From: an uncultured Candidatus Cenarchaeum sp.
GTDB lineage: Archaea > Thermoproteota > Nitrososphaeria > Nitrososphaerales > Nitrosopumilaceae
Length of the DNA: 64,000 nt
Assembly: GCA_958295735.1 (NCBI GenBank)
Contig: OY282369.1
Span: forward strand, 1,286,161-1,350,160
Direction of reading: 5' to 3'
The notes under the pieces were generated by a model, which saw only the letters and a list, made by a program, of their open reading frames with translations, searched no databases and was not told the origin of the DNA. Each line of letters opens with the position of its first letter. The stretch's first letter is position 1. Positions 4,597 through 59,505 of the stretch are shown here, one piece after another. Both the position numbers and the translations under genes were made by a program.

Positions 4597-6483
4597 TATG
4601 AGGTCAGCACCCCCCCCCCCCGCCGGCCGCGGTGCCCCGCGCCCAAGCCGGCCCGGGGCGGGGAGCCTCCCCGCCGCCGGCGTCCCGCGATCAACTAGCT
4701 AGAGAGGCATGTACTAGAGACAGCTCGGGGCGGGGAGCCCCCCCCCCCGCCGCCGGCGTTTGCCGCGGGAAGCGCATCCCCGATCCCGCGTGAGGCCGGC
4801 CCGGGGCGGGGAGCCTTTCCGCCGCCGGCGTCGGTCCCGCGCCGGCCGCGGCGCTGCGCGCTAGACCAGTTTTGCCACTTCTTCGGCCACGCCCTTGCCG
4901 TGCGCCCTCCAGGTCAGGACGCACGTCACGAAGTTGGACATGCGCCTCATGGCCGCGGAGCCGCCCTTGATCTGCCCGCTTATCTTGCGGAACACCACGG
5001 CGTAGCGCAGGGCGCGCTCCGAGGAGTTGTTGGTAGGCTCCGCCTCCGGGTACTCCAGGAACGTGAACAGGATCGGTATGGCCCTCTCGATCCTGGCGAC
5101 GAGTTTTTCCAGCCGCTCGTCGCCCGATCCCCTGTACCGGTCCAGCATGCATCCCAGCGCCACCTCCGCGGCCCGGCGCAGCCTGGCCGACGGCGCCCCG
5201 CCGTCGCGCAGCAGGATGGACTCCACGTACGCGCGCAGCAGGTCCTCGGCCAGGAGGCGCGCGTCCGGATGCGCCCCGTCCGCGTCCGCGACGTGCACGG
5301 CGTTGCGCAGCTCGTGTGACCAGCAGTCCTGGTGCTTTCCTCCCGGATCGAACACCTTGTACGGGCGGTGGCCGTCCGTGGTCACGCATCCCCCGTACCC
5401 GTCCATGTGCGCGTCGATCACCTCGCTGCCCCTGCTCCTGTTGTACACGATGAACACGTTGGGGCCCGACTGGATGACGTGGATCCAGCCCCGGATCCCG
5501 TCCAGCGACATGCCCGACTCGTCGATTCCCGCCGACGGCGAGGCGTAGATCTTGTCCATCACGCCCTTCGCCTCCCGTTCCATGGCGTCCCCGACCCTCG
5601 CGAGCATGTTGATCACCGTGGATTTGGTCACGTGGCAGCCGAACAGCGAGTTCGAGGCCCTCGCGACGCCGTCGTACGGCACCCGATGCGACCGCAGCTC
5701 CGCCACGGCGCCGATCAGGTTCCTGCCGAACGAGCCCTTCTTGGGCAGGCCGCTCTCCGCCTCGAACGTCTTGCCGCACTTTCTGCACTGCGCCGTGTCT
5801 ATGTGGTGGCGCGTCTCGATCGCCACGACGGGCGGTATGTCCGTGATGTCCCGGGTCCTGGTGCAGCCCGGCGCCGCGGGCTGCCCGCAGCATACGGGCG
5901 GGCCGCCCTCGAACGCGTGGTGCTCGGAGCGCGCCGGGTCGTGCCTTCGCGCCGTTCCCTTGTGGCCCTTCCTGCCCCCCGGCTTCTTCCGTTCCGGCCC
6001 GTCGCCGCTCTTGCGGGCGACGTTCTTTTTCTTCTTCAGTTTCTTCCACACCAGCGAGTTGGCCGAGGGCGGCGAGTTGACGTTCTCGTAGTACGACATC
6101 CTGTGGGCCATCGCATCGACGAGCTTCCTGAGGGAGTCGTGCGCGCGGGCAAGCTCGTCGCGCTCGGATCTCACCTCGTCAAACTTGGATCTCAACTCGT
6201 CCATGGCGAGGCGGCCCGCCTCCAGCTCCAGCTCCAGTTCCCTGTACGTCTTGCGCCTGCCCATGCCGTACGGTCTACGGCTATGCATAACAGCGGTCGA
6301 ATTGCGACTTTTCACAAAAAGGTGAAGATCTGCCAACCTCGCGCGGCGGCAAAGCCGGCCCGGGCGCGGGGCGCCGCGGCCGGCGCGGGACCGACGCCGG
6401 CGCGGGGGGAGGGGGCTCCCCGCCCGGGCCGGCCCGGGCGCGGGGCGCCGCGGCCGGCGCGGGGGGGGGGTGCTGACCTCATA
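4597..6483 (-). mobile_element. IS66-type insertion element inserted in the urease promoter region
   Basis: The element is bounded by long imperfect terminal inverted repeats of roughly 95 bp that begin TATGAGGTCAGCACCCCC at both ends. It is flanked by an identical 10-bp direct repeat, CGCGGCGCGG, at 4587-4596 and 6484-6493, read as the target-site duplication. It carries one gene, an IS66-family transposase (4861-6264). The ends contain GC-rich subrepeats: GGGGCGGGGAGCC near 4655, 4737 and 4803, and a 36-bp direct repeat at 6354 and 6428 that includes CGGGCGCGGGGCGCC. No IS66 accessory tnpA/tnpB genes are present. Known IS66 elements usually give 8-bp duplications, so 10 bp is noteworthy. 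Confidence 0.85.
4861..6264 (-). CDS. IS66-family transposase
   Basis: A 467-residue transposase. An N-terminal coiled-coil segment (residues ~10-70) precedes a Lys-rich linker and a Cys-rich zinc-binding region (CCGQPAAPGC ... CRKCGKTFEAE). A DDE catalytic domain follows, with Asp in GIDESGMSLDG, Asp in TTDGHRPYKVF and Glu in NNSSERALRYAVVFRK. The HQDCWSHELRNAVH and FVTCVLTWRAHGKG blocks are typical of IS66. ATG 6264 is chosen; ATG 6288 would add eight residues. The reading frame stays open far upstream, but that extension crosses the element end and is antisense to ureE and ureF. It looks intact, so the element may be recently active. Confidence 0.9.
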   Translation of the reverse strand: MGRRKTYRELELELEAGRLAMDELRSKFDEVRSERDELARAHDSLRKLVDAMAHRMSYYENVNSPPSANSLVWKKLKKKKNVARKSGDGPERKKPGGRKGHKGTARRHDPARSEHHAFEGGPPVCCGQPAAPGCTRTRDITDIPPVVAIETRHHIDTAQCRKCGKTFEAESGLPKKGSFGRNLIGAVAELRSHRVPYDGVARASNSLFGCHVTKSTVINMLARVGDAMEREAKGVMDKIYASPSAGIDESGMSLDGIRGWIHVIQSGPNVFIVYNRSRGSEVIDAHMDGYGGCVTTDGHRPYKVFDPGGKHQDCWSHELRNAVHVADADGAHPDARLLAEDLLRAYVESILLRDGGAPSARLRRAAEVALGCMLDRYRGSGDERLEKLVARIERAIPILFTFLEYPEAEPTNNSSERALRYAVVFRKISGQIKGGSAAMRRMSNFVTCVLTWRAHGKGVAEEVAKLV

Positions 6484-12280: not shown

Positions 12281-12329
12281 TGCCGCGCGCCGGCGCGCGG
12301 TAAGCGGCCGGGCGCGGATGCGGCGGCGG

Positions 12330-12562
12330 CGCCGCGCCGGCGGCGCGCAACCAAGCAACGGGCGCCGCGCCGGCGGCGCGCAACCAAGCAACGGGCGCCG
12401 CGCCGGCGGCGCGCAACCAAGCAACGGGCGCCGCGCCGGCGGCGCGCAACCAAGCAACGGGCGCCGCGCCGGCGGCGCGCAACCAAGCAACGGGCGCCGC
12501 GCCGGCGGCGCGCAACCAAGCAACGGGCGCCGCGCCGGCGGCGCGCAACCAAGCAACGGGCG
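12330..12562. repeat. Seven perfect 33-bp tandem repeats
   Basis: The 33-bp unit (core GGCGCGCAACCAAGCAACGG, rest a GCCGCGCCGGCGGC palindrome) is repeated seven times head to tail with no visible divergence. It lies between the Lrp-like gene and the end of the ParB-like gene. No spacer separates the units, so it is not a CRISPR. Perfect identity implies recent expansion or homogenisation. Being next to parB-like, it could be a ParB-binding array, but nothing proves this. Confidence 0.95.
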
Positions 12563-12602
12563 CCGCCCTTCGCGGGAAGGATGCGCCGCGGGCGGGCCGG
12601 CC

Positions 12603-13821: not shown

Positions 13822-14514
13822 ATGACGACGCACGCCGAGCTGCGGCGGGCCTGCAAGGCAGAAAAAAATCCGCGCAAAAAAGAAAGGTTGCTCGCGGTGC
13901 GCAGCATCGTGATCTGGGGGGAGAGTCGCACGCAGGTTGCAGCGGCGCGGCATCGGGCGTACAACACGATCAGGGCGTGGCACGCGCGCTTCCTGGAGCG
14001 GGGAATAGAAGGACTGGAGGATCTCCCGCGCTCCGGGCGCCCGCCCAAGGCGGCGGGCGGGGCACGATCGGGATCCCGGCGCCGCGGCGATCCCCCGCGC
14101 TCCGGGCGCCCGCCCAAGGCGGCGGGCGGGGCACGATCGGGGTCCCGGCGCCCGCCCAAGGCGGCGGGCGGGGCACGATCGGGGTCCCGGCGCCGCGGCG
14201 ATCCCCCGCGCTCCGGGCGCCCGCCCAAGGCGGCGGGCGGGGCACGATCGGGATCCCGGCGCCGCGGCGATCCCCCGCGCTCCGGGCGCCCGCCCAAGGC
14301 GGCGGGCGGGGCACGATCGGGGTCCCGGCGCCGCGGCGATCCCCCGCGCTCCGGGCGCCCGCCCAAGGCGGCGGGCGGGGCACGATCGGGGTCCCGGCGC
14401 CGCGGCGATCCCCCGCGCTCCGGGCGCCCGCCCAAGGCGGCGGGCCGAAAGATTGCCGACTCTGCGGGCCGCGGCAACGCGGCGCGCGCGGTCCGCAAGT
14501 CCGCAGGACAGTAA
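13822..14514 (+). pseudogene. IS630-type transposase N-terminus with repeat-expanded hinge, truncated
   Basis: From ATG 13822 the first ~75 residues read as an IS630/Tc1-type HTH (MTTHAELRRACKAEKNPRKK ... YNTIRAWHARFLERGIEGLE) and end at the family hinge DLPRSGRPPK. Instead of the DDE catalytic domain, the frame then runs through about six copies of a 23-residue unit built from that hinge (PPRSGRPPKAAGGARSGSRR) and stops after AGRKIADSAGRG.... No DDE region follows before 14850. It is therefore a transposase remnant, or a stand-alone DNA-binding protein with an Arg-rich tail. Confidence 0.7.
14032..14447 (+). repeat. 69-bp in-frame tandem repeats (about six units, one shortened)
   Basis: The unit contains CTCCGGGCGCCCGCCCAAGG and CGATCGGGRTCCCGGCGCCG. 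The copies differ at only one position (GGGATCCC versus GGGTCCC), and the second unit is shortened. The period is 69 bp, so the reading frame is kept. Confidence 0.9.
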
Positions 14515-18960: not shown

Positions 18961-19065
18961 CGCGAGCGCGGATCGGCGGAGTCGCTTCCGCGCCTTGGCG
19001 GACGCCCCCAACACCACCGAGGCCCGCGAGTCGCGAGCGCGGATCGGCGGAGTCGCTTCCGCGCC
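18961..19065. repeat. Spaced direct repeat, 34 bp twice with 37-bp spacer (71-bp step)
   Basis: Two identical 34-bp copies (core GATCGGCGGAGTCGCTTCCG) lie at 18961-18994 and 19032-19065. The 37 bp between them (18995-19031) are unrelated. The repeat contains a GCGGA...TCCGC inverted pair. One of six loci with a ~70-bp step. Confidence 0.9.
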
Positions 19066-23022: not shown

Positions 23023-23685
23023 TTGCCGGATAAAAACGGTGGGCGGGCCGGCGCGTTCGAGGACGACGTGGCCCCGCTGCTGCGCGGCGGCCTCGTCTAC
23101 GTGCTGTGCGAGGAGGCCATCCTAAAGGCGGCGTTCCTGGCCAGGGCGGTGCGGTGCGCCGCCGCCCCCGTCACCTACATAGACACGGACCTGATGTACA
23201 GCGGCCTCCTCTCCTCGGGGATACTTTGCGGGGCCGGCCCCGCGCCGGACGTGCGCAGGCCGGAGGGGGAGGAGGGGATCCGCGCGGCGCTCGCGGCTGC
23301 CCTGCGCGCGGCCTCGGGGGCGGGGAGGGCCTCCGTGGTGGTCGTCGACTCGCTCAACGGCCTGTACGGCATGTGCGGCGACGGCGACGGGGAGAGGCTC
23401 GCCACCGCGCGCCTCATGCTGCTGGCGCTGGCCGCGGGCGGGAGCGGATCCACTGTGATACTGGCGGGCGTCGCCACGCCCAGGGAGGACGGCTGCGGCC
23501 CGGGGCGCTGGGCGCTGGCGCCGGCGGGGCGCCGCATAGCCGCGGCCCGCCCCTCCACGCGCATGCGGCTGAGGCGGGCCGGCGGGGGCGGGGCGGGGGC
23601 GGAGGTAGACCTGCTCGGGGAGGGGGACGCGGCGGTCCGCACCATAGCGATCCCCGGCCTGGCGCCGGCGGCGCCGGCGCCCTGA
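23023..23685 (+). CDS. RecA/KaiC-fold-like protein lacking a clear Walker A
   Basis: TTG 23023 (MPDKNGGRAGAFEDDVAPLL) is chosen because a GTTAAATAC box lies 21-31 bp upstream. The 220 residues resemble the RecA/KaiC fold: GLVYVLCEEAILKAAFLARA, VTYIDTDLMYSGLL, and a Walker B-like strand ASVVVVDSLNGLYGMC. No GxxxxGK[ST] P-loop is visible. It may be a degenerate archaeal RadB/KaiC-type paralogue. The last codons lie inside a 36-bp repeat that recurs just downstream. Confidence 0.6.
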   Translation: MPDKNGGRAGAFEDDVAPLLRGGLVYVLCEEAILKAAFLARAVRCAAAPVTYIDTDLMYSGLLSSGILCGAGPAPDVRRPEGEEGIRAALAAALRAASGAGRASVVVVDSLNGLYGMCGDGDGERLATARLMLLALAAGGSGSTVILAGVATPREDGCGPGRWALAPAGRRIAAARPSTRMRLRRAGGGGAGAEVDLLGEGDAAVRTIAIPGLAPAAPAP

Positions 23686-23757
23686 CGAGAGGCAGTACGT
23701 CATGACCAAGGGCTTCTGGGACCCCGGCCTGGCGCCGGCGGCGCCGGCGCCCTGACG
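23652..23757. repeat. Spaced direct repeat, 36 bp twice with 34-bp spacer (70-bp step)
   Basis: Two identical 36-bp copies (starting CCCCGGCCTGGCGCCGGCGG) lie at 23652-23687 and 23722-23757. The first overlaps the 3' end and stop of the RecA-like gene; the second is non-coding. The 34-bp spacer (23688-23721) is far less GC-rich than its surroundings (AGGCAGTACGTCATGACC), as if it came from elsewhere. Confidence 0.9.
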
Positions 23758-24179: not shown

Positions 24180-24278
24180 CCGGGATCCTGCGCGGCCCCG
24201 GCCCGCGGTTGCGCCGCGGGGGCTGCCCGGTCTCGAACGTCCCCCTCAAGCCGGGATCCTGCGCGGCCCCGGCCCGCG
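24180..24278. repeat. Spaced direct repeat, 28 bp twice with 43-bp spacer (71-bp step)
   Basis: Identical 28-bp copies (starting CCGGGATCCTGCGCGGCCCC) lie at 24180-24207 and 24251-24278, downstream of the ferredoxin and of the convergent DnaJ-like gene. The 43 bp between them are unrelated to the repeat. Confidence 0.9.
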
Positions 24279-43435: not shown

Positions 43436-43847
43436 CCAGAACCGACGCTGCCCCCGCCGGCCCCCGCCGGCCCCCGCCGGCCCGGCGGGGCCGGCACCTC
43501 TTTGGCCGAGCCGCGCCAGAACCGACGCTGCCCCCGCCGGCCCCCGCCGGCCCCCGCCGGCCCCCGCCGGCCGGCCAGCACGGACCCACACACCTTCATT
43601 TCCACTCCGCCTTCCTTCTCCCCTCCCCTCCCCTCCCCCTCCTTTTCAAAAAAAAAAAAGAAGAAGAAGAGAGTGGAAATGAAGGTGTGTGGGTCACTGG
43701 ATGCTCTAGTTAACAGTAGTGAATGGTGTGTTAATGGACAGGTCAAAAAGCCGGTTTTTGACCCCTTCATTTCCACTCTAGGCGTTAAGCGCGCTCTTAA
43801 CAGTGTTAAAAGCCGGTTTTTGACCCCTTCATTTCCACTCTAGGCGT
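43436..43847. other. Probable replication origin with ORB-like repeats
   Basis: A 637-bp gene-free region beside cdc6. Four copies of GAGTGGAAATGAAGG occur: on the plus strand at 43671-43685, on the minus strand at 43593-43607, 43764-43778 and 43826-43840. The last two continue as GAGTGGAAATGAAGGGGTCA, close to the archaeal origin recognition box pattern (CAGTGGAAAC followed by a G-string). A 40-bp direct repeat at ~43746-43785 and 43808-43847 contains those two. A C-rich CCCCCGCCGG tract is repeated at 43436 and 43516. An A12/GAA tract (43648-43670) and AT-rich 43708-43740 could unwind. Confidence 0.75.
43583..43695. repeat. 25-bp perfect inverted repeat flanking a polypyrimidine/poly-A tract
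   Basis: Arms at 43583-43607 and 43671-43695 are perfect complements and contain ORB-like boxes in opposite orientation. The 63-bp interval is a C/T-only run (CTTCTCCCCTCCCCTCCCCT) followed by A12 and GAAGAAGAAG. Inverted ORBs around an easily melted tract are typical of archaeal origins. Confidence 0.9.
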
Positions 43848-46529: not shown

Positions 46530-47285
46530 ATGTTAAAGGGCGGCGTGGAGGCCCGCATACGATCGGAGTTGGAGGGAAAAAAGACGCTGATCTTCGTGCT
46601 GGTCGACTCGGAGGTCTCCGGCGCGGATGCCGCGGCCGACCTTGCGGCGCGGGCGGAGAAGCGGGGCGCATCGGCCGTGCTGGTGGGTGGCTCGACGGTC
46701 ACCGATCAGGCCGAGACGGCCGGCGCTGTCAGAAGCATACGCGGGGCGGTTGGCATACCGACCATACTGTTCCCCGGCAACGTGGCCGGCGTGGTCCCCG
46801 GCGCGGACGCGATACTGTTCACGTCGCTCATGAACTCGGAGCACCCGCACTTTATCACGCAGGCCCAGGCGCTGGGGGCGCCGAGCGTGCTGCGGTACGG
46901 CCTGGAGGCCCTCCCCACCGCCTACCTCGTCATAGGCGAGGGGACCACCGCGTGGTTCGTGGGTTCGGCCAGGGGCATACCCCGCGACAAGCCCAAGATC
47001 GCGGCGGCCTACTCGCTGGCAGCCAGGTTCCTCGGGATGCGGTTCGTGTACCTGGAGGCCGGCTCGGGAGCGGCGGCCAGCGTCAGGCCGGAGATGGTCG
47101 CGGCGGTACGCGCCGCGTTCGACGGGGTGCTGATAGTGGGCGGCGGCATCCGGGACGCGGCGACGGCGGGCAGGCTCTCAAAGGCCGGCGCGGACGTGGT
47201 GGTGGTCGGGACCATGCTGGAGGCAGGGCGCGGGGGCATGGCCAGGCTGTCCGCCATGGCCAAGGCGGTCGGCGGGGCGCGATGA
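46530..47285 (+). CDS. Geranylgeranylglyceryl phosphate synthase
   Basis: A 251-residue TIM-barrel enzyme that forms the first ether bond of archaeal lipids. Diagnostic blocks: SAVLVGGSTVT, TILFPGNVAGVVPGADAILF, SLMNSEHPHF, YLVIGEGTTAWFVGSARGIP, YLEAGSGA, and VGGGIRDAATAG ... VVVGTM. ATG 46530 follows a GTTTAAACC box (46501-46509). The protein ends GGAR, with its TGA overlapping an ATG. Confidence 0.95.
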   Translation: MLKGGVEARIRSELEGKKTLIFVLVDSEVSGADAAADLAARAEKRGASAVLVGGSTVTDQAETAGAVRSIRGAVGIPTILFPGNVAGVVPGADAILFTSLMNSEHPHFITQAQALGAPSVLRYGLEALPTAYLVIGEGTTAWFVGSARGIPRDKPKIAAAYSLAARFLGMRFVYLEAGSGAAASVRPEMVAAVRAAFDGVLIVGGGIRDAATAGRLSKAGADVVVVGTMLEAGRGGMARLSAMAKAVGGAR

Positions 47286-47372
47286 GCGGGGGGAACGCGG
47301 CTTTCCCGCCGCGCCCCGCGCGCGGCCGGCCGGCAGCAACCGGCGGGGCGCGATGAGCGGGGGGAACGCGGC
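47270..47372. repeat. Spaced direct repeat, 32 bp twice with 39-bp spacer (71-bp step)
   Basis: Copies at 47270-47301 and 47341-47372 (core GGCGGGGCGCGATGAGCGGG) flank an unrelated 39-bp spacer. It lies exactly at the stop/start junction of GGGPS and DP2. Confidence 0.92.
47282..47356 (+). CDS. 24-codon microORF created by duplication of the ggs-polC junction
   Basis: ATG 47282 overlaps the GGGPS stop (ATGA). The frame MSGGNAAFPPRPARGRPAAT ... GGAR stops in TGA 47354-47356, which overlaps the ATG of DP2. The 32-bp junction sequence is present twice with a 71-bp step, so this ORF begins like DP2 (MSGGNAA) and ends like GGGPS (GGAR). Probably not a functional protein, but it preserves coupling between its neighbours. 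Confidence 0.5.
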   Translation: MSGGNAAFPPRPARGRPAATGGAR

Positions 47373-50807: not shown

Positions 50808-52172
50808 CTACCTGAGCCTGACGTACTCGTACGCGGGAAGCCTGCCGTCGAAGCAGTAGCGCACCTTCTGGAACCCCTTCCTGAGCGCGCGGACCCCCGA
50901 GCGCACCCGGGCGGGGTCCCTGCCGCCGATGACCGCCTGCCCCATGAGCGAGGCGATCTCGCGCATCTCGCCCTTCTTCATGCCGAGCCTCGTCACCTCT
51001 GCCACCCCGAGCCTGATCCCGCCGGGGTGCATGTAGTGCCGGCCCGCCCTGATGTCCCCCGGGATGAGCTGCCTGTTGACTATTATGTTGGCCTTTTCGA
51101 GATCCGCCTCGACCCGCCCGCCGTCCGAGTGGGCCAGGACGTCGACCGCGACCTGGTGCGATCTCGTGAAGCCGCCGGCCTCGCCCAGCACCCGGAAGCC
51201 GGCCGCGCTGAGCGCCTCGGCGAGCGCCCTCGCGTTGCCGACCACCTGCCTGGCGTAGGCGGCCCCGAACTCGGCGGCCTCGGCGAACGCCACCGCCTTG
51301 GCCGCCATGTGGTGTATGTGGTGGCTGCTCGTGAGGCCCGGAAAGACGGCCCTCTTGATCCCCTCGGCGTGGGCCTTCCCGCCCAGCACCATCCCGCCCT
51401 GCGGGCCGAAGAGCGTCTTGTGCGTGCTGGCCGTGAGCGTGTCTGCCCCCTCCCGGAGCGGGTCCTGGAACTGGCCCCCCGCTATCAGGCCCGCCACGTG
51501 GGCCCCGTCGTAGTTCACGTGCATGCCGCTGTCCTTGAGGAAGCCGGCCAGCTCCTTCACGGGGTGCGGGAACAGGAACAGCGAGCCGCCGAGCATGGCT
51601 ATCTTCGGCGCCCCGCGGCCCCGCTTCAGCCCGCGCACCTTCTTCTTCGTCCCGTCCACGTCGATGTTCATCGCCTCGGGGTCGAACGGGTAGAACTCGA
51701 CGTCCAGCCCGTGGACGAGGCCGGCCGTGCCGGCGTGCTCCCGCCGCCCGTGGGATATGTGGCCCCCCGCGGGGATGGAGGGCGCCAGCATGGCGTCGCC
51801 GGGGCTCGAAAAGGCGGAATACACGGCCAGGTTGGCCACCACCCCCGAGACGGGGCGGACGTCGGCGAACCGCGCCCTGAACAGCCTGCGGGCCAGGGCG
51901 GCGCACTCGACCTCCACCTCGTCTATGTACGCGCAGCCCGCGTACACGCGCTCGCCCGGCCAGCCCTCGGCGTAGCGGTTCCCAAAGTCGGAGATCAGCG
52001 CCTCGCGGACCGCGGGACTCGGGACGTTCTCGCTCGCTATGAGCGGAAGCGACTCGCCGAACCACCCGTGGTGCTTCTTGAGGGCGGCGAAGACGCCGGC
52101 GTAGGATGCGCGGGCCGTCCGGCCCGCGGCTGCAGGGCGCGCCCCGCGCCCCGCGGCCGCCGAAGCTTTCAT
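50808..52172 (-). CDS. glyA: Serine hydroxymethyltransferase
   Basis: A 454-residue PLP enzyme (serine to glycine, one-carbon transfer). LIASENVPSPAVREALISDF, the PLP Lys in TASTHKTLFGPQGGMVLGGK, and HVNYDGAHVAGLIAGGQF are typical of archaeal GlyA. ATG 52172 (MKASAAAGRG) has a TTTAAATGCG box 20-28 bp upstream. The first ~25 residues are a variable Ala/Arg extension. Confidence 0.94.
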   Translation of the reverse strand: MKASAAAGRGARPAAAGRTARASYAGVFAALKKHHGWFGESLPLIASENVPSPAVREALISDFGNRYAEGWPGERVYAGCAYIDEVEVECAALARRLFRARFADVRPVSGVVANLAVYSAFSSPGDAMLAPSIPAGGHISHGRREHAGTAGLVHGLDVEFYPFDPEAMNIDVDGTKKKVRGLKRGRGAPKIAMLGGSLFLFPHPVKELAGFLKDSGMHVNYDGAHVAGLIAGGQFQDPLREGADTLTASTHKTLFGPQGGMVLGGKAHAEGIKRAVFPGLTSSHHIHHMAAKAVAFAEAAEFGAAYARQVVGNARALAEALSAAGFRVLGEAGGFTRSHQVAVDVLAHSDGGRVEADLEKANIIVNRQLIPGDIRAGRHYMHPGGIRLGVAEVTRLGMKKGEMREIASLMGQAVIGGRDPARVRSGVRALRKGFQKVRYCFDGRLPAYEYVRLR

Positions 52173-52230
52173 GCCGCCGCCGTGCCCGCCCGCATTTAAA
52201 ACGGTATTGATGGCGCTCCGGCCAGGCGCC

Positions 52231-52400
52231 GCTGCGCGGAAACGGCGCCCCACGGGCGCGCCCCGCGGCCGCCGGCTGGGGCACTTTGCCCCGATTGCGG
52301 CTGCGCGGAAACGGCGCCCCACGGGCGCGCCTCGTCCAGCATGACCTTCCGGCGGACGGGAGCAGGCGGCTGCGCGGAAACGGCGCCCCACGGGCGCGCC
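52231..52400. repeat. CRISPR-like mini-array: three perfect 32-bp repeats, two 37-bp spacers
   Basis: Repeats (core GCGCGGAAACGGCGCCCCAC) lie at 52231-52262, 52300-52331 and 52369-52400. The spacers 52263-52299 and 52332-52368 are each exactly 37 bp and unrelated to one another. Repeat length, spacer length and constant 69-bp step are those of a CRISPR array, but there is no AT-rich leader, no cas gene in the window, and the array is tiny. A diverged copy of the repeat (29/32) lies at 59440-59471. Between glyA and the thermosome gene. Confidence 0.9.
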
Positions 52401-52473: not shown

Positions 52474-54156
52474 ATGAGCAACGTCCAGGCCTCGTCAAAG
52501 GGCACCATGCCGGTGGTGTTGCTAAAGGAGGGCTCCTCGGAGACCAAGGGGCGCGACGCCCAGAAAAACAACATATCCGCATCCAAGATAATCGCCGAAA
52601 TCGTGCACTCCAGCTTGGGCCCCCGCGGCATGGACAAGATGCTGGTTGACTCTTTGGGTGACGTTACCATAACCAACGACGGCGCCACCATACTCAAGGA
52701 GATCGACGTCCAGCATCCGGCCGCCAAGATGCTCGTGGAGATATCAAAGTCAACCGACAACGAGGTGGGCGACGGCACCACCTCCGCCGTCGTCTTGGCC
52801 GGCTCCCTCTTGGAGAACGCCGAGTCGCTCCTCGCCCAGGACGTGCACCCCACGGTGATCGTCGACGGGTACAGGAAGGCGGCCAAAAAGGCCGAGGAGG
52901 CCCTCCGGGAGATAGCCGATGCGGTCTCTCCCGACGACCGTGGCATCCTCGCGAAGGTCGCCAAGACGTCCATGCAGACAAAACTGGTCAGGAAGGACTC
53001 CGACCTGCTTACCGACCTCGTGGTGCGGGCAGTCATGGCGGTGGCCGACAAGGACGGCGAGGGCCGGGCCGTCGACGTGGACGACGTGAAGGTGGAGAAA
53101 AAGGCGGGCGGCTCCGTCGGGGACTCGCGCCTCGTCGAGGGCATAGTGCTGGACAAGGAGATAGTCCACGGCGGGATGCCCAAAAGGATCGCCGATGCCA
53201 AGATCGCACTGCTCAACGCAGCGCTAGAGATCAGCAAGACCGAGACGGATGCGAAGATAAACATCTCCAACCCCCAGCAGCTAAAGTCGTTCTTGGACGA
53301 GGAGAACCGCATGCTGAAGACCATGGTGGACAAGGTGATAGCGTCCGGCGCCAACGTGGTCCTGTGCCAGAAGGGCATAGACGACATGGCCCAGCACTAC
53401 CTGGCAAAGGCCAACATACAGGCAGTCAGGCGCATAAAAGAAAGCGACCTGTCAAAGCTGGCAAAGGCCACGGGGGCCCGAATCGTGACCAACTTGGACG
53501 ACCTGTTCGAGAAGGACTTGGGCTCGGCGGCGAGCGTGGAGGAGCGCAAGATAGAGGAGGACCGCTGGGTGTTCGTGGAGGGTTGCCGCCATCCAAAGTC
53601 CGTGACCATCCTGTTGCGCGGCGGCTCGCAGCGCGTGGTGGACGAGGCCGAGAGGTCGGTGCACGATGCCGTAATGGTGGTAAAGGACGTGCTGGAGCTT
53701 CCCTCCGTGGTGGCCGGCGGCGGCGCCCCCGAGACCTACGCGGCATCGCAGGTGCGCGGCTGGTCAAAGTCGCTGGCGGGCAGGGAGCAGCTCGCGGCAG
53801 AAAAGTACGCCGACTCGCTGGAGTCCATACCGCTGGCGCTCTCCGAGAACGCGGGAATGGATCCGATTGACACCCTCACGTCCCTCAGGTCCAGGCAGCT
53901 GAAGGGCGAAAAGTGGACGGGCATCGACGTGATGAAGGCCCGCATATCCAACATGAAGGCCGGCGACATCATTGAGCCGCTGGCGGTCAAGTCGCAGGTA
54001 GTCTCCTCCGCCACCGAGGCCGCGTGCATGATACTGCGCATCGACGACGTGGTGGCCACCGCGAAATCCGCCGGCCCGCCCCCCGGGGGCGAGGGCGGAA
54101 TGGGCGGCGGCGGCATGGGCGGAATGGGCGGCGGCATGCCTGACATGGGCATGTGA
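52474..54156 (+). CDS. ths: Thermosome (group II chaperonin) subunit
   Basis: A 560-residue chaperonin. ATP-site motifs: SSLGPRGMDKMLVDSLGDVT, TNDGATILKEIDVQHPAAKM, DNEVGDGTTSAVVLAGSLL, and VVAGGGAPE. The C-terminal Gly/Met-rich tail (GGGMGGMGGGMPDMGM) projects into the cavity. It folds cytosolic proteins in an eight- or nine-membered double ring. Codon use is less extreme in GC3 than in neighbours, consistent with high expression. Confidence 0.97.
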   Translation: MSNVQASSKGTMPVVLLKEGSSETKGRDAQKNNISASKIIAEIVHSSLGPRGMDKMLVDSLGDVTITNDGATILKEIDVQHPAAKMLVEISKSTDNEVGDGTTSAVVLAGSLLENAESLLAQDVHPTVIVDGYRKAAKKAEEALREIADAVSPDDRGILAKVAKTSMQTKLVRKDSDLLTDLVVRAVMAVADKDGEGRAVDVDDVKVEKKAGGSVGDSRLVEGIVLDKEIVHGGMPKRIADAKIALLNAALEISKTETDAKINISNPQQLKSFLDEENRMLKTMVDKVIASGANVVLCQKGIDDMAQHYLAKANIQAVRRIKESDLSKLAKATGARIVTNLDDLFEKDLGSAASVEERKIEEDRWVFVEGCRHPKSVTILLRGGSQRVVDEAERSVHDAVMVVKDVLELPSVVAGGGAPETYAASQVRGWSKSLAGREQLAAEKYADSLESIPLALSENAGMDPIDTLTSLRSRQLKGEKWTGIDVMKARISNMKAGDIIEPLAVKSQVVSSATEAACMILRIDDVVATAKSAGPPPGGEGGMGGGGMGGMGGGMPDMGM

Positions 54157-59401: not shown

Positions 59402-59505
59402 CCTCCGGGTCCCGCAGGACGAAGCCGGCCTAGCTTGCGGTTGCGCGGAAACGGCGCCCCCCGGGCGCGCTTCCTCCAGGTCCCGCGGGACGAAGCCGGC
59501 CTAGC
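59402..59505. repeat. Spaced direct repeat, 33 bp twice (2 mismatches), 38-bp spacer resembling the 52-kb repeat
   Basis: Copies at 59402-59434 and 59473-59505 (core GACGAAGCCGGCCTAGC) have a 71-bp step. The spacer 59435-59472 holds TTGCGCGGAAACGGCGCCCC and matches the 32-bp repeat of the 52231 array at 29 of 32 positions. The second copy overlaps the stop of the kinase-glycosylase gene. Confidence 0.9.

Follow-up and report, generated by a model that had tools for sequence, protein, structure and literature searches.

The mini-array of three repeats between the glyA and thermosome genes of this Candidatus Cenarchaeum genome is, judged from its sequence, very probably a neo-CRISPR, formed through off-target spacer integration by the organism's own type I-G Cas4/Cas1-Cas2 complex. 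It belongs to a class of isolated repeat-insert-repeat units which share a period of about 71 bp, occur at a density of ~80 per Mb, and in part carry inserts copied from the genome itself. Off-target integration was one of three possibilities raised in the initial annotation of the locus, and is the one that the evidence below favours.

The repeat locus between glyA and the thermosome gene

We analysed a stretch of 64,000 nt (the window), in which an exact 32-bp repeat is present in three copies at 52231-52262, 52300-52331 and 52369-52400, with start-to-start spacings of 69 and 69; by chance, no such set of three exact copies would be expected at this locus. This confirms the three identical repeats first described between glyA and the thermosome gene, including their period of 69. 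The accompanying description of 32-bp repeats with 37-bp spacers holds for the regular geometry but not for the exact lengths, as repeat copies 2 (52297-52331) and 3 (52366-52400) are identical over 35 bp while copy 1 differs by one base within the three extra positions (GCC vs GCG), so that the natural unit is a repeat of ~35-36 bp with an insert of ~34 bp. The features of the locus and its neighbours are as follows.

50808-52172, minus strand: glyA (serine hydroxymethyltransferase), left neighbour
52228-52262: repeat (duplicated target) copy 1, with the exact 32-bp core at 52231-52262
52263-52296: insert S1, ~34 bp
52297-52331: repeat copy 2, 35 bp, identical to copy 3
52332-52365: insert S2, ~34 bp
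52366-52400: repeat copy 3
52474-54156, plus strand: thermosome subunit gene, right neighbour

Both glyA and the thermosome gene are preceded by TATA-like boxes with the array placed between them, and an effect on these neighbouring promoters is possible. With these two genes as its neighbours it indeed has no cas gene or AT-rich leader beside it; the label "without cas genes" is thus correct locally but misleading for the genome as a whole, which carries a complete-looking type I-G system elsewhere. A fourth, mutated copy of the repeat (3 mismatches) was detected at 59440-59471, with no further copies at ≤3 mismatches in the 3.17-Mb genome, and the core of the repeat was absent from all 40 relatives searched (40/40). 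The locus gave no match to an Rfam family. Matches to the spacers, a check proposed in the initial annotation, were likewise not forthcoming, with no source for S1 or S2 in the own genome at ≤3 mismatches, in phage records, or as exact 22-23-mers in IMG/VR. In the genus sister (G001) the orthologous glyA-thermosome spacer contains no array and is too diverged to provide a clean empty site. Resemblance of the locus repeat to the genome's real CRISPR repeat is not evident, and since it is not the repeat that the I-G effector uses, processing into crRNA would be unlikely, as is a function of the mini-array as a CRISPR array.

Units of the same geometry in the window and across the genome

A search for spaced direct repeats over the full window revealed several other units, alike in geometry but differing in sequence.

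6354-6463: probable ectopic unit and the least certain of the set; 36-bp repeat with a period of 74, surrounding DNA very rich in G+C
18961-19065: ectopic unit, 34-bp target duplicated, 37-bp insert
23652-23757: ectopic unit, 36-bp target duplicated, 34-bp insert
24180-24278: ectopic unit, 28 bp still identical, period 71
47270-47372: ectopic unit, 32-bp target duplicated, 39-bp insert, at a gene junction
59402-59505: second ectopic unit, 33-bp target duplicated, period 71

Two of these have inserts with a visible source. The insert of the unit at 59402-59505 (59435-59472) is a mutated copy of the junction between S1 and repeat copy 2 of the mini-array (52295-52330; 34/38 match), which accounts for the fourth repeat copy near 59440, located between convergent genes and not in a promoter. 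As this insert copies the end of S1 together with repeat copy 2, S1 would have been in place before the copying. The insert of the unit at 23652-23757 has its source elsewhere in the genome (L102:13612-13645; 33/34), with TTG adjoining. The window also holds repeats of other kinds, namely a perfect tandem array of a 33-bp unit, GGCGCCGCGCCGGCGGCGCGCAACCAAGCAACG, with at least 7 copies (12328-12566), a compound array of G+C-rich hairpin-like units with periods of 42, 69, 111 and 138 (14020-14445), and a 40-bp AT-richer repeat in two exact copies with a period of 62, outside the 71-bp class (43746-43847).

We then scanned a sample of 1.194 Mb, 38% of the 3.17-Mb genome, for non-periodic spaced direct repeats with a period of 40-200, a repeat of at least 22 bp and an insert of at least 24 bp. 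This yielded 255 pairs, whose periods peak sharply at 70-72 (22, 37 and 19 pairs, respectively; peak at 71). Isolated repeat-insert-repeat units with a period of 68-75 numbered 95, compared with 10 in the range 61-67 and 10 in the range 76-82, and none was detected in Markov-shuffled sequence. After subtraction of a background of ~1.4 per period, extrapolation to the whole genome gives about 200-250 units. Repeat length in this class peaks at 36-37, yet nearly every unit carries a repeat sequence of its own, so that only the geometry is common, and the inserts likewise have no sequence or ends in common. Five units in the sample are of the three-repeat, two-insert kind, the glyA-thermosome mini-array among them. 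Where the repeat measures 33-40 bp, its copies are identical in 38/58 units and show mismatches in 20/58, and both recent and older events therefore seem to be present. Coding periodicity is weak where the units sit (codon-position GC spread of 0.19 vs 0.31 in random stretches), and most of them are in non-coding DNA.

As a control, we examined sampled stretches from ten relatives, together ~0.88 Mb, and found no isolated units of period 68-75 except for one canonical I-G repeat pair, which lies close to a cas4/1 gene in relative G015. Most of the ten have a Cas1 match and several show ordinary arrays; as Cas1-bearing relatives lack such scars in the sampled stretches, having the enzyme is not sufficient. 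The genus sister (2,045,086 bp) gave no Cas1 match, and no such unit in 240 kb, while four bacterial loci retrieved with a Cas4/1 query (61 kb) contained one non-canonical unit, with a period of 72 (L173). The genomes also differ in size and composition, with 3.17 Mb and ~71% G+C (in the sample) here, 2.05 Mb and 57% in the genus sister, and mostly 35-47% G+C in the other sampled relatives. A separate multi-copy element was seen in the genome, a 53-bp G+C-rich repeat pair (period 83, 30-bp middle) present at four places in both orientations (L050:15770, L053:5085, L055:1678 and L061:11675).

The resident type I-G system and the origin of the inserts

The real CRISPR array of this genome (G000:C1:2939609-2981980) contains 531 repeats of 36 bp (GCTTCAATGGGGCCGCAACATGAGAGTTGCGGAAAG) and spans 42 kb, with nearly all repeats identical and three interruptions of about 1.3-1.6 kb. 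Its spacers (527 measured, 513 distinct) are 33-39 bp in length with a mode of 35. The mean period of the array is 71.6, and that of the 58 ectopic units whose repeats measure 33-40 bp is 71.1. It is adjoined by cas2 and a Cas4g/Cas1g fusion, the latter matching NF049935 with 711 bits against a cut-off of 560, and on its other side by cas7g and cas3, and on this sequence evidence the system is assigned to type I-G. The cas1 of this locus is the only one found in the genome and lies about 1.6 Mb from the mini-array. A second set of type I-G effector genes (Cas3-like and Cas7g matches) occurs at G000:C1:1151639-1155253, with no cas1 or repeat array in the 20 kb examined around it. Its cas1 and cas2 look active, and the repeat and spacer lengths of the array match those of the ectopic units. 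The adaptation module belongs with the type I-G modules that have a Cas4/Cas1 fusion, as in Methanosarcina barkeri and Geobacter sulfurreducens (PMC10504553), and the repeat end CATTGAAGC is the same as in the I-G repeat of relative G015. In vitro, the type I-G Cas4/1 gave directed integration and also some nonspecific products (PMC10504553); however, that study describes no genome-wide scars of the kind seen here.

Insertion with duplication of the target is directly evidenced by paralogous empty sites of other units of the class, in which one repeat is present and the insert and second repeat are missing. Four such cases were found. The site L126_7627 has an empty counterpart at L126:5768 that is 99% identical and from which 70 bp are absent, and further empty sites were seen for L089_14416 (in L127 and L088), L086_11644 (in L104) and L099_11737 (in L090).

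We also assessed where the inserts came from. The raw count of inserts with a match elsewhere in the genome (16/93) was discarded as evidence, as the many paralogs in this genome give random 35-mers an equal rate of matches elsewhere; ~22% of such 35-mers were found again within the genome sample. We therefore used an edge-bounded test, which demanded ≥85% identity and unrelated 12-nt flanks on both sides in every match, and searched 38% of the genome. Such self matches were found for 10/58 inserts, compared with 4/3000 random 35-mers and 0/116 flanking 35-mers, and since the search covered 38% of the genome, self DNA may account for about half of the readable inserts. In the same 38% sample, and disregarding the array itself, self matches covering 80% of the spacer were found for none of the array spacers (0/527). 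At the curated source sites TTN was present at one end in 4/9 (background 0.056, p=0.001; a small sample). This PAM-like motif is a point of likeness to type I-G, for which PAMs include TTN and TTC (PMC8482600), and the M. barkeri Cas4/1 study used the 5'-GAA-3' PAM strand (PMC10504553). In addition, the insert of the ectopic unit at L050:10117-10225 (insert at L050:10153) begins with 17 nt of the 3' end of the real repeat, as would be seen if a fragment of the array had been taken up and integrated at another site.

The duplicated targets resemble the real repeat slightly, with 12.8 matches of 36 against 11.8 +/- 0.3 at random sites, mainly at the GCTTCAAT end, and their self-complementarity exceeds that of the surrounding DNA (mean rank of 0.38 vs an expected 0.50 +/- 0.04). 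A free EM motif search over the targets was set aside because it overfits 48 sequences, and the comparison with the real repeat was kept in its place.

Alternative explanations and significance of the scars

A repeat flanking an insert is a general mark of transposition, and the empty sites would also be expected of a MITE-like short mobile element, or of another integrase, with a target-site duplication of ~36 bp. Known transposons duplicate far fewer bases than this. Moreover, the inserts share neither sequence nor ends and derive from different places in the genome, and the lengths of insert and duplication equal those of the spacers and repeats of the resident CRISPR, all of which makes a mobile element very unlikely. 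The regular geometry, identical repeats and unique spacers would equally suit a degenerate or orphan array of another CRISPR-Cas system, as the initial annotation had considered; however, apart from its captured copy the repeat occurs nowhere else and in 0/40 relatives, it is unrelated to the real CRISPR repeat, nearly all similar units differ from one another in their repeat, and a single cas1 was found in the genome, leaving this origin extremely improbable. The suggestion of a different repeat family is likewise unsupported, since members of the class are alike in geometry and not in sequence.

Given that the array lies between two divergent promoters, in a genome with many tandem repeats, we also considered tandem duplication, slippage, or regulatory iterons common to the glyA and thermosome promoters. 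Tandem duplication copies a whole period, whereas these inserts are unique; moreover, the fourth copy is not in a promoter, the orthologous spacer in the sister has no repeats, and the 71-bp class is found genome-wide, so that an origin of this kind is most improbable. The ~71% G+C of the genome and its single contig might raise the suspicion of an assembly artefact, but an artefact would not reproduce the repeat-plus-spacer length of the CRISPR or avoid coding DNA, nor would it give older, mutated copies (the 20/58 with mismatched repeats) or TTN at the source sites, and we consider it barely credible.

In off-target integration, the type I-G Cas4/Cas1-Cas2 complex would take up a DNA fragment of ~34-36 bp and connect it with the two ends of a ~36-bp target in the glyA-thermosome intergenic region, after which gap filling would duplicate the target to give R-S-R (R, repeat; S, insert). 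A second integration into the same target would then give R-S1-R-S2-R. Genome-wide, about 200 such accidents would have taken place, for the most part in non-coding DNA, with inserts that include self DNA, that of the unit at 59402 having been copied from the S1/R2 junction of the mini-array. The geometry and density of the units, the empty sites in paralogs, the self origin of some inserts and the presence of the enzyme genes are direct observations; from these we infer the identity of the enzyme as Cas1-Cas2, its activity in living cells, and the status of the scars as by-products with no function. The high susceptibility of this genome could possibly reflect a promiscuous Cas4/1, high expression, or weak recognition of the leader.

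Comparable events are known from the type I-E system of E. coli, where Nivala, Shipman and Church (2018, Nat Microbiol 3:310-318) reportedly saw neo-CRISPR loci mainly upon overexpression, with a few putative natural cases. As here, these loci consist of an insert of spacer size that lies outside the CRISPR locus between two copies of a target of repeat size. In contrast, the units described here involve type I-G, are natural, reach ~80 per Mb in one genome and show visible capture of self DNA. Passages of PMC9456107 and PMC11788318 cite neo-CRISPR loci from non-canonical Cas1-Cas2 integration in E. coli type I-E, and frequent integration outside the CRISPR locus by the minimal Cas1 integrase of type V-C is cited in a passage of PMC13034035. 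The type V-C enzyme differs in its half-size repeats and spacers and in having no Cas2, and its off-target activity was observed as such and not as a natural genomic record. Within our limited coverage of the literature we found no published genome with such a density of scars, which is weak evidence of novelty; what is unusual here is the natural density of off-target integration together with the visible capture of self DNA.

More tentatively, and as a plausible reading that falls somewhat short of probable, the type I-G Cas4/Cas1-Cas2 may be a genome-wide mutator of this lineage, which continues to insert ~71 bp (insert and duplicated target) in non-coding DNA, drawing on self and foreign sources alike, with some scars, such as the three-repeat mini-array, becoming preferred targets and developing towards new arrays. 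If so, captures made before immunity removes self-targeting cells would be preserved in these scars naturally and without selection. The contrast between array spacers (0/527) and ectopic inserts (10/58) in self matching within the 38% sample would be expected if self DNA were captured freely and purged later as harmful in the array. Some 200 natural scars could provide a selection-free measure of self-DNA uptake, of the motif used and of the targets preferred, and, as some of them have gained a second spacer, they suggest a concrete route for the birth of new CRISPR arrays.
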